The notes beneath the pieces are model-generated. The model made no database searches. It had not been told where the DNA came from and was given only the letters and a program-made list of their open reading frames with translations. Of a stretch of DNA of 64,000 nt, positions 3,007 to 9,303 are shown in pieces. Origin of the DNA: Lutibacter sp. Lineage in GTDB: Bacteria > Bacteroidota > Bacteroidia > Flavobacteriales > Flavobacteriaceae. Position 1 is the stretch's first letter, and the number at the start of each line of letters is the position of its first letter. The stretch spans positions 186,001 through 250,000 of the forward strand of contig JAUXPH010000015.1 in the NCBI GenBank assembly GCA_030683995.1. Direction: 5' to 3'. Made by a program: the position numbers and the translations under genes.

Positions 3007-4482
3007 TTAAATAATCTTGGTCATTGCAGTCATAGATTCCCTTAAATCGTACCCAACCAATTCAATTGCGTGGAACCTGATGGCTTCATTGATTTCTATC
3101 AATTCCTTGTTGTCAACCCCATTGTCTTTTCCTTCGCCATATTTTTTGCCGATCACGTCGGTATCAATTTTCTTCATAAAATCGGCCAATAAAGGTTTGC
3201 AGGCGTGGTCAAACAAATAACAACCGTATTCGGCGGTATCTGAAATAATTCTGTTCATTTCAAACAATTTTTTACGCGCGATGGTATTTGCAATTAAAGG
3301 CGTTTCGTGAAGCGATTCATAATAAGCCGACTCTTCTTTGATGCCGGATTCTGTCATCGTTTCAAAAGCCAATTCCACACCCGATTTCACAAATGCAACC
3401 ATTAAAACCGCATTGTCAAAAAACTCTTGCTCTGAAATTTTCATACTTCCGGCAGCTGTTTTTTCGAAGGCAGTTTCTCCTGTTGCCGCTCTCCAGCTCA
3501 ATAAATTTTTATCGTCATTCGCCCAGTCTTCCATCATGGTTTTAGAAAATTCGCCGCTCATAATATCATCCATATGTTTTTGGAACAGCGGACGCATAAT
3601 TTCTTTCAATTCCTCTGAAAGTTTGAATGCCTTAACTTTCGCCGGATTCGACAAGCGATCCATCATATTGGTGATTCCGCCGTATTTTAAAGCTTCTGTA
3701 ATCACTTCCCAGCCATACTGAATCAGTTTTGAAGCGTAACCCGGATCAATGCCTTTTTCTGTCATTTTATTAAAAGACAAAATAGAACCGGTTTGCAACA
3801 ATCCGCATAAAATGGTTTGTTCGCCCATTAAATCCGATTTTACCTCTGCCACAAATGAAGAATGCAACACCCCGGCTTTATGTCCGCCCGTAGCCGCACA
3901 ATACGCTTTTGCATAATCAAAACCATCGCCGTTTGGATCGTTTTCAGGATGAACCGCAATCAATGTCGGTACACCGAATCCGCGCTTGTATTCTTCGCGA
4001 ACTTCAGAGCCGGGCGATTTTGGAGCCACCATAATTACCGTAATGTCTTTTCTTATTTGCATCCCTTCTTCCACAATATTAAATCCGTGCGAATAAGAAA
4101 GAATCGCGCCTTTTTTCATTAAAGGCATAATGGCCGAAACCACGCTGGTATGCTGTTTGTCGGGTGTTAAGTTGATCACCAAATCGGCTGCAGGAATCAT
4201 TTCTTCATAAGTTCCCACTTTAAATTTGTTATCCGCCGTATTTTTATAGGATTGACGTTTTTCTTTGATTGCTTCCGGACGCAAAGTATATGAAACATCC
4301 AATCCGGAATCTCTCATATTTAATCCTTGGTTAAGCCCTTGCGCGCCACAACCCACGATTACTATTTTCTTGCCTTCCAGTTTTTTTACGCCGTCTTCAA
4401 ATTCTGAGGAATCCATAAATTCACAAATTCCCAATTGTTGTAATTGTAAACGTAAAGGAAGCGAGTTGAAATAATTTGCCAT
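3007..4482 (-). CDS. ilvC: ketol-acid reductoisomerase (long, class II type)
   Basis: 491 aa; [55 protein letters not shown] motifs. Confidence 0.97.
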
Positions 4483-4570: not shown

Positions 4571-5092
4571 TTAACTTTTTTCTATCAAGACATCTGAAAT
4601 CGCCATTCTTGGCCTTGAGATCGCAATGCGTCCGGAGCGGACAAATTGCATCAGTCCGTAATGCTTTAATTTTTGATACATATTGTCGATATCTTCTTTT
4701 AATCCGGAAGCTTCAATCACAAAATAACGTTCGGTGATTGCAATGATATGGGCTCTTCTGAATTTTAATTTATTCTGAATATTTTCATCATATAAATGTT
4801 CCGACGAAATTTTAAACAAGGCCGTTTCGTGATAAATGATTTCCTCTTCGGTATGAAAAAAAGCGCCAATCACTTCTATTTGCTTTTCCAGTTGCAGCAC
4901 AACTTTACGAATCAACGTTTCAGTCACTAGCACCACAAAAGTAAATCGATGTACGTGCTCAATTTCCGATTCGGAAACGGTCATGCTTTCGATATTGATA
5001 TGTCGTTTTAAAAATATGGCCGACAACCGGTTCAATATTCCTATATTATTTTCGGTATAAACCGATACGGTATAATTCTTTTTTTCTTCCAT
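4571..5092 (-). CDS. ilvN: acetolactate synthase small subunit
   Basis: ACT-domain N-terminus YTVSVYTENNIGILNRLSAIFLKRHINIESMTVSESE; adjacent to ilvB. Confidence 0.93.
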   Translation of the reverse strand: MEEKKNYTVSVYTENNIGILNRLSAIFLKRHINIESMTVSESEIEHVHRFTFVVLVTETLIRKVVLQLEKQIEVIGAFFHTEEEIIYHETALFKISSEHLYDENIQNKLKFRRAHIIAITERYFVIEASGLKEDIDNMYQKLKHYGLMQFVRSGRIAISRPRMAISDVLIEKS

Positions 5093-5094
5093 AA

Positions 5095-6828
5095 CTAAGT
5101 CAATCTTATATCTGAAACACTTGCTCCTGTCGGTATCATCGGAAACACATTGCTTTCCGGTTCAATCACCACTTCCAAAAAATAAGCTTCTTTTGAATCT
5201 GTCATTTTTTTGATGGCATCGGCCAAATCTTCACGTTTTGAAACCCTGTTCGCTTCTATGCTGTAACCTTCCGCAATTTTCACAAAATCGGGATTTGTCA
5301 TCACCGTTGAAGCATAGCGACGGTCGAAAAACAATTCCTGCCACTGCCTTACCATTCCCAAAAAGCTGTTATTTAACACCACAATTTTTACGGCTGCTTT
5401 TGTTTGAAGGATGGTTCCCAATTCCTGTATGGTCATCTGATAACCGCCGTCACCAATAATGGCGATCACTTCACGATCCGGCGCACCCATTTTTGCGCCG
5501 ATGGCTGCCGGCAAAGCAAATCCCATCGTTCCCAATCCGCCCGAAGTGATATTGCTTCTGGTTTTTGTGAATTTCGCATAACGCCATGCAATCATTTGGT
5601 GCTGGCCAACATCGGAAACGATTACCGCTTCGCCTTTGGTTTCTTTATTGATTCCTGCCAAAACCTCACTCATGGTCAAGCCTTCTTTGGTCGGATTTAA
5701 TTGATCATTAATCACAACTTCCTTCTCAATTTCATACAATTTATGAAATTCTTTCATCCATTCGCTATGATTTCCTTTCTTTACAAATTGCATAACTTCA
5801 ACCAAAGATTCTTTAACGGTTCCCAAAACAGCCACATCGGTTTTCACATTTTTATCCACTTCGGAAGGGTCAATTTCAAAATGAATAATTTTTGCCTGTT
5901 TGGCGTAGGTATTTAAATTTCCTGTAACACGGTCATCGAAACGCATTCCGATGGCGATCAACACATCACATTGGTTTGTCAATACATTTGGCCCATAATT
6001 TCCGTGCATTCCAACCATGCCCACATGCAAAGGATGGTCGGTTTCCAATGCCGACAAGCCCAAGCCTGTGCACGCCGACGGAATGCCTGTTTTTTCTATA
6101 AAGTTTTTAAATTCATTTTCAGCACTGCCAAGAATCACGCCTTGCCCAAAAACAATCAATGGTTTTTTGGCGGCATTGATTAACACGGCGGCTTCTTTCA
6201 CTTTTTCGATGTTCAATGTCGGAATTGCCTTGTAACTTCTGACTTTTACGCATTTGTTATACGAAAAGTCGAGTTCGCCAAATTGGGCATCTTTGGTAAT
6301 ATCAATCAATACCGGACCTGGGCGTCCCGATTTTGCGATGTAAAATGCTTTCGCAAAAACCGCGGGAATTTCACTGGCCTTGGTGATTTGATAATTCCAT
6401 TTTGTCACCGGTGTAGAAATCCCGATGATGTCCGTTTCCTGAAAAGCATCTGAACCCAACAAATGAGAACCAACCTGACCGGTGATGCAAATCAAAGGCG
6501 TTGAATCAATTTGCGCATCGGCTATTCCGGTCACTAAATTGGTGGCACCGGGACCGGAAGTTGCAAAAACAACCCCAACTTTACCCGTTACGCGGGCAAA
6601 ACCTTGTGCCGAATGAATGGCGCCTTGTTCGTGGCGCGACAATACGTGGTGAAATTGCTCACGGTATTTGTACAATTCATCATAAACCGGCATAATGGCA
6701 CCGCCTGGATAGCCGTAAGCCAAGGTTGATCCTTCTTCCAGCAAACATCTGATGACTGCTTCAGCCCCCGACATCTTTACCGATTTTACCGTATTTATTT
6801 CCTGAACTTCCTTTTTTAATGTCTCCAT
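5095..6828 (-). CDS. ilvB: acetolactate synthase large subunit
   Basis: YGYPGGAIMPVYDELY, ThDP motif GDGGYQMTIQELGTILQTKAAVKIVVLNN. Confidence 0.97.
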   Translation of the reverse strand: METLKKEVQEINTVKSVKMSGAEAVIRCLLEEGSTLAYGYPGGAIMPVYDELYKYREQFHHVLSRHEQGAIHSAQGFARVTGKVGVVFATSGPGATNLVTGIADAQIDSTPLICITGQVGSHLLGSDAFQETDIIGISTPVTKWNYQITKASEIPAVFAKAFYIAKSGRPGPVLIDITKDAQFGELDFSYNKCVKVRSYKAIPTLNIEKVKEAAVLINAAKKPLIVFGQGVILGSAENEFKNFIEKTGIPSACTGLGLSALETDHPLHVGMVGMHGNYGPNVLTNQCDVLIAIGMRFDDRVTGNLNTYAKQAKIIHFEIDPSEVDKNVKTDVAVLGTVKESLVEVMQFVKKGNHSEWMKEFHKLYEIEKEVVINDQLNPTKEGLTMSEVLAGINKETKGEAVIVSDVGQHQMIAWRYAKFTKTRSNITSGGLGTMGFALPAAIGAKMGAPDREVIAIIGDGGYQMTIQELGTILQTKAAVKIVVLNNSFLGMVRQWQELFFDRRYASTVMTNPDFVKIAEGYSIEANRVSKREDLADAIKKMTDSKEAYFLEVVIEPESNVFPMIPTGASVSDIRLT

Positions 6829-6832
6829 CGCT

Positions 6833-8515
6833 TTAAAATTTATCCGTTACACAGCCTTCCGAAGCCGTTGAAACGATTTTTGCATATTTGTACAATATTC
6901 CTTTTTTGTGTTTTGGCTCTGGCGCTGTCCATGCTGCTTTTCTCAAAGCCAGCTCCTCCTGAGATAATTTTACATTGATGGTTTTATTTTTGGCATCAAT
7001 CACAATGATATCGCCATCTTTCACCAATGCAATTGTTCCGCCAGACTGTGCTTCAGGCGTAATGTGCCCAACCACAAATCCGTGCGTTCCGCCCGAAAAA
7101 CGTCCGTCTGTCACCAAAGCGACCGATTTTCCCAAACCAGCACCCATAATCATGGAAGTTGGCTTTAACATTTCCGGCATTCCGGGACCGCCTCGTGGGC
7201 CGACATAACGAATCACCACCACATCGCCTTTTGATACTTTTCCTGCGCCAATGCCATTGTTTGCATTTTGTTCGCCATCAAAAACTACCGCTTTCCCTTC
7301 AAATAAATCTCCTTCATTTCCGCTTATTTTAGCCACAGATCCTTCCGTGGCCAGGTTTCCATATAAAATTTGAATGTTCCCCGACGATTTCAAGGCTTTT
7401 TCAGTGGTGTGAATGACGTGCTGGTCATTTTCAAAACTCAATGCTTTAACATTGGCCAAATTTTCAGCAATCGTTTTTCCGGTAATGGTCATACAATCTC
7501 CGTGTAACAATCCTTTTCCCAGCAAATATTTCATCACGGCAGGCGTTCCGCCAACTCCGTGCACATCTTCCATCAAATATTCACCGCTTGGTTTTAAATC
7601 GGCAATTACCGGCGTTCTGTCGCTTACCCGTTGAAAATCTTCCAAGGTAAAATCGATATCCGCCGCGTGTGCAATCGCCAAATAATGAAGCACCGCATTG
7701 GTTGATCCGCCCAAGGCATTCACCAAAGCCACCGCATTTTCCAACGATTTTTTGGTAATGATGTCCAATGGTTTTAAATCGAGTTCCAATAAATTTTTAA
7801 TGGCGGCAGCGATTCTTTCCGTTTCTGATTCTTTTTCCTCGTTTACTGCAGGAATGGAGGAATTGTAAGGCAAAGCAAAACCCAAGGCTTCTATGGAAGA
7901 AGACATGGTGTTTGCTGTATACATGCCGCCGCAAGCTCCTGCGCCCGGAATGGCATTTTTTATAATTTCCCTAAATTCTTCTTCTGAAATGACTCCGGCA
8001 ATTTTTTGTCCGAGTGCTTCAAAAGCCGAAACGATATTTAATTTTTTTCCTTTGTATCTTCCCGAAGCTATAGTTCCGCCGTACACCATTAACGATGGCC
8101 GGTTTAACCGCAACATCGCCATAATGGCACCGGGCATATTTTTATCGCAACCAACAACGGTCACCAAAGCATCGTAACTTTGGGCATTCATCACCACTTC
8201 AATGGAATCGGCAATAATATCGCGCGAAGGCAAGGAATAATTCATTCCCGATGTTCCCATAGAAATCCCATCGCTAACGCCGATGGTGTTAAATACGAGT
8301 CCGACCTGGTTTTTTTTATTGACTTCCTCCTTAATTTTATAGGCCAGATTGTTCAGGTGCATATTGCACGGATTTCCGTCGAAACCAGTGCTTGCAATGC
8401 CTACCTGAGGTTTTTTCATGTCTTCATCCGTCAAACCAACGCCGTATAACATAGCTTGGGCAGCAGGCTGCGTTTCATCTTGTGTGACTCTTTTGCTGTA
8501 TTTATTTAGTTGCAT
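6833..8515 (-). CDS. ilvD: dihydroxy-acid dehydratase
   Basis: 560 aa; [40 protein letters not shown] motifs. Confidence 0.97.
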
Positions 8516-8722
8516 TTATATTTGTAATTTTTTACTTCTGTTAAATTTTATTGATAAAACCTTGGTTTTAATCGCCGTTTAAAATAAACGGCAAATTTAA
8601 ACCTGTCATTTATTATGCGCCTTTGGCATTTGTTTATTTTACAGTATCCACTTGCTGTTAATTATCGTTATATTTCTGTTTTTCATTTAGTTAACCCTAT
8701 TTTTTTTACAATGATTATACCA

Positions 8723-8760
8723 TAAAAAAAACCTTCCCAATGTTGATTAGGAAGGTTTTT
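8723..8760 (-). terminator. intrinsic terminator/attenuator between BCAA leader ORF and ilvD
   Basis: Reverse strand AAAAACCTTCC-taatcaacattg-GGAAGGTTTTTTTT: stem followed by U-tract. Confidence 0.75.
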
Positions 8761-8791
8761 AAAGTTTTTTTACTCAAACTAAATCATCATC

Positions 8792-8857
8792 CTAACCTCC
8801 TTGTGAAATAATCACAGAGACACGAATAGCGACGATATTTAGAATTACTTGGTTCAT
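8792..8857 (-). CDS. putative branched-chain amino-acid leader peptide MNQVILNIVAIRVSVIISQGG*
   Basis: Reverse-strand codons read directly; 10 of 21 residues are Ile/Leu/Val; located just upstream of a terminator hairpin and the ilvDBNC operon. Confidence 0.7.
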   Translation of the reverse strand: MNQVILNIVAIRVSVIISQGG

Positions 8858-9303
8858 TGGAGGCAAATATGGGAAATAATTATTAAAAATCAGGCATAAA
8901 ATGTTCGATTTTTTTGGTTCTTATGATAAAAACCAAGTAAAAAATCATAAAAATGAATTCAATTGAAATTTGTTTTAACCGCAAGGAACGCAAAGAAAAA
9001 TACACAAGGAGCGCAAAGAAAATTTTGGATTTACGATTGATGATTGACGAATTTTACCTTGTCGATATTTTTAATTTTAAAACAAATCGTAAATCCGTCA
9101 TCCTGAGCGGAGCCGAAGGACGTAAATCAATTCGCGTTAGGGAGTGTAGTGAAAATCCTTTTTAATGGTTTTTACCGTTAAAAAGATTGTAACGGAAAGC
9201 CCGACCTGCCTGCCGGCAGGCGGGTAACGCCCACCAAAAAGTCGGGCAGGCCCAAAACTTCTAAATATAAATTGTTGTAGTTATTGGCCTTAAACCAATT
9301 TTT

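Follow-up and report, generated by a model that had tools for sequence, protein, structure and literature searches.

The window analysed here, 64,000 nt of the genome of a marine Lutibacter (Flavobacteriaceae), carries on its minus strand the ilvDBNC operon, with all four genes assigned by NCBIfam models: ilvD, the first gene of the operon, encoding dihydroxy-acid dehydratase (6833..8515; TIGR00110, 737 bits), ilvB, encoding the acetolactate synthase large subunit (5095..6828; TIGR00118, 691 bits), ilvN, encoding the small subunit (4571..5092; TIGR00119, 104 bits), and ilvC, encoding ketol-acid reductoisomerase (3007..4482; NF003557, 915 bits). Upstream of ilvD, beyond a 208-nt spacer (8516..8723, minus strand), lies a unit composed of a short leader ORF and an intrinsic terminator; the search for two serial units returned one in the window. 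An earlier note on this DNA had described the leader ORF, the stem, the 8-T tract and the ilv operon that follows; its coordinates are correct, and the NCBIfam assignments confirm the operon. The Rfam search, both strict and permissive, found no leader family at the gathering cut-off (Phe_leader: 21.8 bits vs 55). On the opposite strand, ~270 nt upstream of the leader, there is a match to the Flavo-1 RNA (RF01705, 9129-9210, plus strand), which has 62 matches in the genome (46 over the cut-off), some of them near his and trp, and thus resembles a dispersed repeat in its distribution. In the closest relative (L002), the sequence at this position is different.

The leader ORF (MNQVILNIVAIRVSVIISQGG*, 8792..8857, minus strand as all features below; ATG at 8857-8855, TAG at 8794-8792) has 21 codons, and 10 of its 21 residues are Ile, Leu or Val, i.e. 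it is rich in codons for the operon's own product. A candidate -7 promoter box, CATATTTG (8864..8871), agrees with TAnnTTTG at 5 of 6 positions and its 3' end is 6 nt upstream of the ATG, hence the leader is probably nearly leaderless. The control codons of strand 1 (TAAATATCGTC, 8831..8841) form the 5' arm of a protector helix, the partner of which lies at ~8780-8791 in the minimum free energy structure, and a further hairpin, TGTGA-TTATT-TCACA (8802..8816), is internal to the ORF. Strand 2 (GGTTAGGA, 8790..8797), the 5' arm of the predicted antiterminator, contains the in-frame TAG and pairs with strand 3 (TCCTAATC, 8745..8752), which is common to the antiterminator and the terminator, lying in the 5' arm of the latter. 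With flanking bases the 2:3 helix (GGTTAGGA:TCCTAATC) comprises 8 bp including one G-U, and it contains the complementarity between TTAGGA (8795-8790) and TCCTAA (8752-8747) that had been noticed before. The intrinsic terminator (8724..8760), recognised by sequence, fold and covariation, starts 31 nt past the leader stop codon and consists of a 15-bp stem (AAAAACCTTCCTAAT/CAAC/ATTGGGAAGGTTTTT, 8760-8727) and an 8-T tract (8731-8724). The leader RNA folds with -40.4 kcal/mol, compared to -24.6 +/- 3.4 in shuffled sequences (z = -4.7), and the 2:3 and terminator alternatives both use strand 3.

The unit is conserved in the genus. The upstream regions of 27 Lutibacter genomes could be aligned over it, with the leader in the same position and a similar peptide (core NIISIxVSVIIS), and the stop codon is located within strand 2 or a few nt 5' of it in most species. 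A covariance model built from these 27 units matches the window at 8725-8857 with 118.7 bits. Of 37 Lutibacter genomes, 32 have a strong match to it (70-134 bits), and the five that lack one are at most 88% complete; the genus counts leave out L007, where the contig ends, and L016, which has unrelated sequence upstream close to the end of its contig. The strong copies occur once per genome, immediately upstream of ilvD. Matches below ~50 bits correspond to generic terminators on either strand and were not used; the model is thus unfit for locating other operons across the genome, and his and trp were approached via hisG and trpE (see below). In one congener (L008), unit I has a 2-nt insertion (GGTTATAGGA), by which the leader is out of frame at strand 2 and stops farther downstream; its attenuator may be altered, or the insertion may be an assembly error.

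Over the terminator, the ORF-internal hairpin and the protector helix taken together, 9 pairs exhibit two-sided changes vs 4.9 in shuffles (reached in 1/500), with 32 cells changed on both sides vs 10.3 in shuffles (reached in 0/500), and the fraction of paired cells drops from 91% to 43-53% when the partners are slid, every slid control being far lower. The terminator is paired in 97.8% of cells and has 4 pairs with two-sided changes among the 27 species. The ORF-internal hairpin is paired in 88% of cells, with two-sided changes in 2 of its 5 pairs (TGTAA/TTACA in some species), and the protector helix (alignment columns 18-29/67-78), which joins the control codons (CAATATxATTTC) to the stretch GGAATGTTATTG overlapping and following the stop codon, is paired in 86%, with 3 pairs changed on both sides. 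The antiterminator core gave no covariation signal among the 27 species, because TAGGA:TCCTA is nearly invariant in Lutibacter, and therefore a partner-swap test across the phylum was used instead.

For this survey, a mechanical finder required an ORF rich in Ile, Leu and Val codons, a terminator 12-75 nt past its stop codon and 2:3 pairing. At least one complete unit was found in 40 of the 77 upstream regions of ilvD from named Bacteroidota, while each of five dinucleotide shuffles yielded 0-1/77 and the antisense strand 4/77; a stricter finder returned 31/77 vs 0. The mean score of 2:3 complementarity is 14.4, as opposed to 11.3 with swapped partners, and 0 of 2000 permutations match the observed value. 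The alternative antiterminator pairing proposed in the earlier note is conserved in the genus and recurs across the phylum with different sequences (TAGGA, GGTGAGA, GGAATGG, TGATGCA and others), and the leader peptide itself drifts widely with its Ile/Leu/Val content kept. A survey of the family Flavobacteriaceae covered 90 genomes, in most cases a single one from each genus; the unit is present in 48 (shuffled: 3/270; antisense: 5/90), and the mechanical finder returned no unit at the remaining 42 of the 90 ilv loci. A -7 box with at least 5 of 6 matches precedes 32 of 34 unit I leaders of the family, mostly 7-11 nt 5' of the ATG (shuffled flanks: ~30%), which suggests that type I units have very short 5' leaders; according to the available text of PMC9723704, only 5.5% of the mRNAs are leaderless in Flavobacterium psychrophilum.

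The codon content of the leaders sharply tracks the pathway in Flavobacteriaceae (Trp for trpE, His for hisG, Ile-Val-Leu for ilvD). A Trp-run leader followed by a terminator lies upstream of trpE in 29 of 30 genomes and a His-run leader upstream of hisG in 28 of 30 (WW leaders: trp 97%, his 0%, ilv 0%; His-run leaders: trp 0%, his 93%, ilv 2%; leaders rich in Ile, Leu and Val: trp 17%, his 7%, ilv 44%). The genome from which the window derives has its own codon-matched his leader (MNFSQNHHHHFHNRTQVS, L150) and trp leader (MNLKNTNTNWWWNSLNL, L171), both with terminators. The rare Val codon GTC accounts for 9% of the Val codons in 13 genes of the window, 39% of those in unit I leaders and 74% in unit II leaders (described below). 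Both the presence of the ORF and terminator in relatives and the wider claim of a Bacteroidota ilv attenuator, made previously from a single sequence, are thus borne out by the Lutibacter congeners and by codon contents that follow the pathway; the control-codon protector, the stop codon inside the antiterminator arm, the -7-type box and the tandem units in relatives were absent from the earlier note.

We consider it highly probable that the unit controls ilvDBNC by ribosome-mediated transcription attenuation, a mechanism for which the start site, translation, stalling, termination and response to amino acids are inferred from the sequence. A ribosome following the RNA polymerase would translate the nearly leaderless 21-codon peptide. 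With plentiful Ile and Val (and Leu), it would reach the UAG within strand 2 and cover this strand, so that the terminator (3:4) would fold and transcription would end before ilvD. If Ile or Val were short, the ribosome would stall at the control codons in strand 1, leaving strand 2 free for strand 3, and with 2:3 paired no terminator would form and the operon would be transcribed. In an untranslated RNA, strand 1 could pair with the strand 2 region (the protector, 1:2), which would favour termination more in some species than in others. Folding with a ribosome mask, which represents geometry and thermodynamics with an assumed footprint rather than kinetics, agrees with mutual exclusion of antiterminator and terminator set by the ribosome position through the common strand 3: in RNAs ending at strand 3, the mean probability of the 2:3 helix is 0.96 with the ribosome at early codons and 0.93 at middle codons; with the ribosome at the stop codon it falls to 0, a value that is due to the footprint assumed. 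When the ribosome is omitted, the mean is 0.60 in unit I (window: 0.45) and 0.77 in unit II, i.e. the helix is often not suppressed, which makes the untranslated state uncertain.

Could the same features arise otherwise? The upstream gene (10857-9304) is transcribed in the same direction as the leader and Ile codons arise easily in T-rich sequence, so the hairpin might be the ordinary intergenic terminator of that gene and the short ORF a product of chance. We find this very improbable, as a promoter-like box separates that gene from the leader ORF, the leader peptide, hairpin and protector are conserved and covarying, shuffled sequences almost never yield a unit, and T-richness does not explain runs of Trp and His codons upstream of trpE and hisG. 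We also give very little credence to the idea that the terminated leader acts mainly as a small RNA or as a functional micropeptide, with attenuation being secondary: the terminated product would indeed be a ~135-nt RNA with conserved hairpins, but what is conserved is the alternative pairing and the type of codons, while the peptide drifts across the phylum with its Ile/Leu/Val content retained, and in the genus the leader is located just upstream of ilvD, with one strong copy per genome.

Another possibility is that the attenuator is real, but most expression of ilvD starts at a second promoter located within the 208-nt spacer, which would make attenuation minor or limited to certain conditions. 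The length of the spacer from the T tract to ilvD is nearly constant (208-210 nt in most Lutibacter congeners), and the genus alignment reveals conserved elements in it, namely ATAATCATTGTAAAA (8704-8718), a second TATTGTAAAA-like copy and TAAATTTG (8599-8592), a -7-like box that fits TAnnTTTG. These elements perhaps represent a second promoter or an operator, and the box between the terminator and ilvD could allow the attenuator to be bypassed. Nonetheless, the second promoter is proposed from a motif match, and the attenuator has been retained in nearly the whole genus; we regard its dominance as unlikely and prefer attenuation as the main control. ATAATCATTGTAAAA was also considered as a regulon site and dropped, having one exact copy genome-wide.

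Relatives of the window reveal a further layer of organisation. In 11 of the 27 Lutibacter species, two non-identical leader-terminator units are arranged in series, the second starting 9-19 nt past the T tract of the first. Unit II has a leader of the type xIILIQVIIV, a TGA stop codon inside TTGATGCA and the terminator CCTGTATCA..TGATACAGG. Among the 90 Flavobacteriaceae genomes, 12 contain a pair of units, compared with 0/270 shuffled and 0/90 antisense sequences; in 11 of the 12, type I is followed by type II, with the ATGs 131-159 nt apart. The flank-pairing test for the type II antiterminator provides weak support, 83 of 5000 permutations reaching the observed value. Two-unit ilv leaders were also found in Tenacibaculum, Gaetbulibacter, Aquimarina and Myroides, as well as in MAGs labelled Cyclobacteriaceae, Flavobacteriales and Ignavibacteriae. 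At other operons of the family, two units occur at 1 of 30 trp loci and 0 of 30 his loci.

In the IlvD tree, which has uneven support, species with tandem units are intermingled with single-unit species, and most of the early branches are tandem. Read by eye, the tree suggests repeated loss of unit II, including in the clade of the window, which appears to have kept only the first unit. The single-unit species have a terminator at the place occupied by the unit II terminator in tandem species (~208-210 nt from ilvD), as expected if the stretch from one terminator tail to the other had been deleted. We think it fairly probable that ilv in Flavobacteriaceae was ancestrally under two different serial attenuators (type I with CCTTCC, type II with CTGTATCA), both reading branched-chain codons and together forming a steeper, AND-like gate, that one or the other was lost depending on the lineage, and that the window became type-I-only after loss of unit II, possibly via recombination between two GGTTTTTTTAT terminator tails.

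Two Lutibacter genomes (L022 and L024) contain only remnants of unit II, with the GGTTTTTTTAT tail kept and the ORF and stem degenerate. The MAG labelled Ignavibacteriae (L055) encodes, downstream of its two-unit leader, an IlvD 68% identical to that of Lutibacter; this case could represent transfer, mis-binning or a wider distribution. At a trpE locus from another family of Flavobacteriales (L159:77-400), a terminator follows each of two WWW leader ORFs, which makes this a possible tandem trp attenuator.

In enterobacteria, ilvGMEDA (ilvL) and ilvBN (ivbL) are preceded by a leader peptide rich in Ile, Val and Leu, a protector, an antiterminator and a terminator. The Lutibacter unit resembles them in logic. 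It differs in that the stop codon falls inside the antiterminator arm, that the leader, behind a candidate promoter box of the Bacteroidota type, is probably nearly leaderless, and that relatives have two units. A literature search for serial ilv attenuators in Bacteroidota found none; Lopatovskaya et al. 2010, reportedly a comparative study of attenuation (cited in PMC4833913), was outside its scope. In F. psychrophilum, of the same family, the transcriptome gave "strong clues" of leader-peptide attenuation upstream of amino-acid operons according to the available text of PMC9723704, the main text of which does not contain the term ilv and in which neither covariation nor a tandem arrangement was found. 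In the leader of Salmonella mgtCBR, an attenuator belongs to each of two short ORFs, an arrangement that has been called "a singular example" (PMC3641672); the signal there differs between the units (ATP and proline), whereas both Flavobacteriaceae ilv units carry branched-chain codons. The ilvBNC operon of Corynebacterium glutamicum, from a different phylum, has a leader peptide and a three-hairpin attenuator, as described in the available text of PMC11857589, and is likened here by this description. The element in the window is hence very probably a case of ribosome-mediated attenuation, a known mechanism already suspected for amino-acid operons of Flavobacterium; the serial attenuators of the same pathway in its relatives look new.

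These results provide sequence-level evidence, throughout Flavobacteriaceae, of pathway-specific attenuation at the ilv, trp and his operons. As the family is reported, in the available text of PMC9723704, to be without Shine-Dalgarno sequences, such attenuation offers a route to study the coupling of ribosome and polymerase in these bacteria. The double ilv attenuator additionally raises the questions of whether two stacked attenuators of the same pathway sharpen the response and why only some lineages have kept both.
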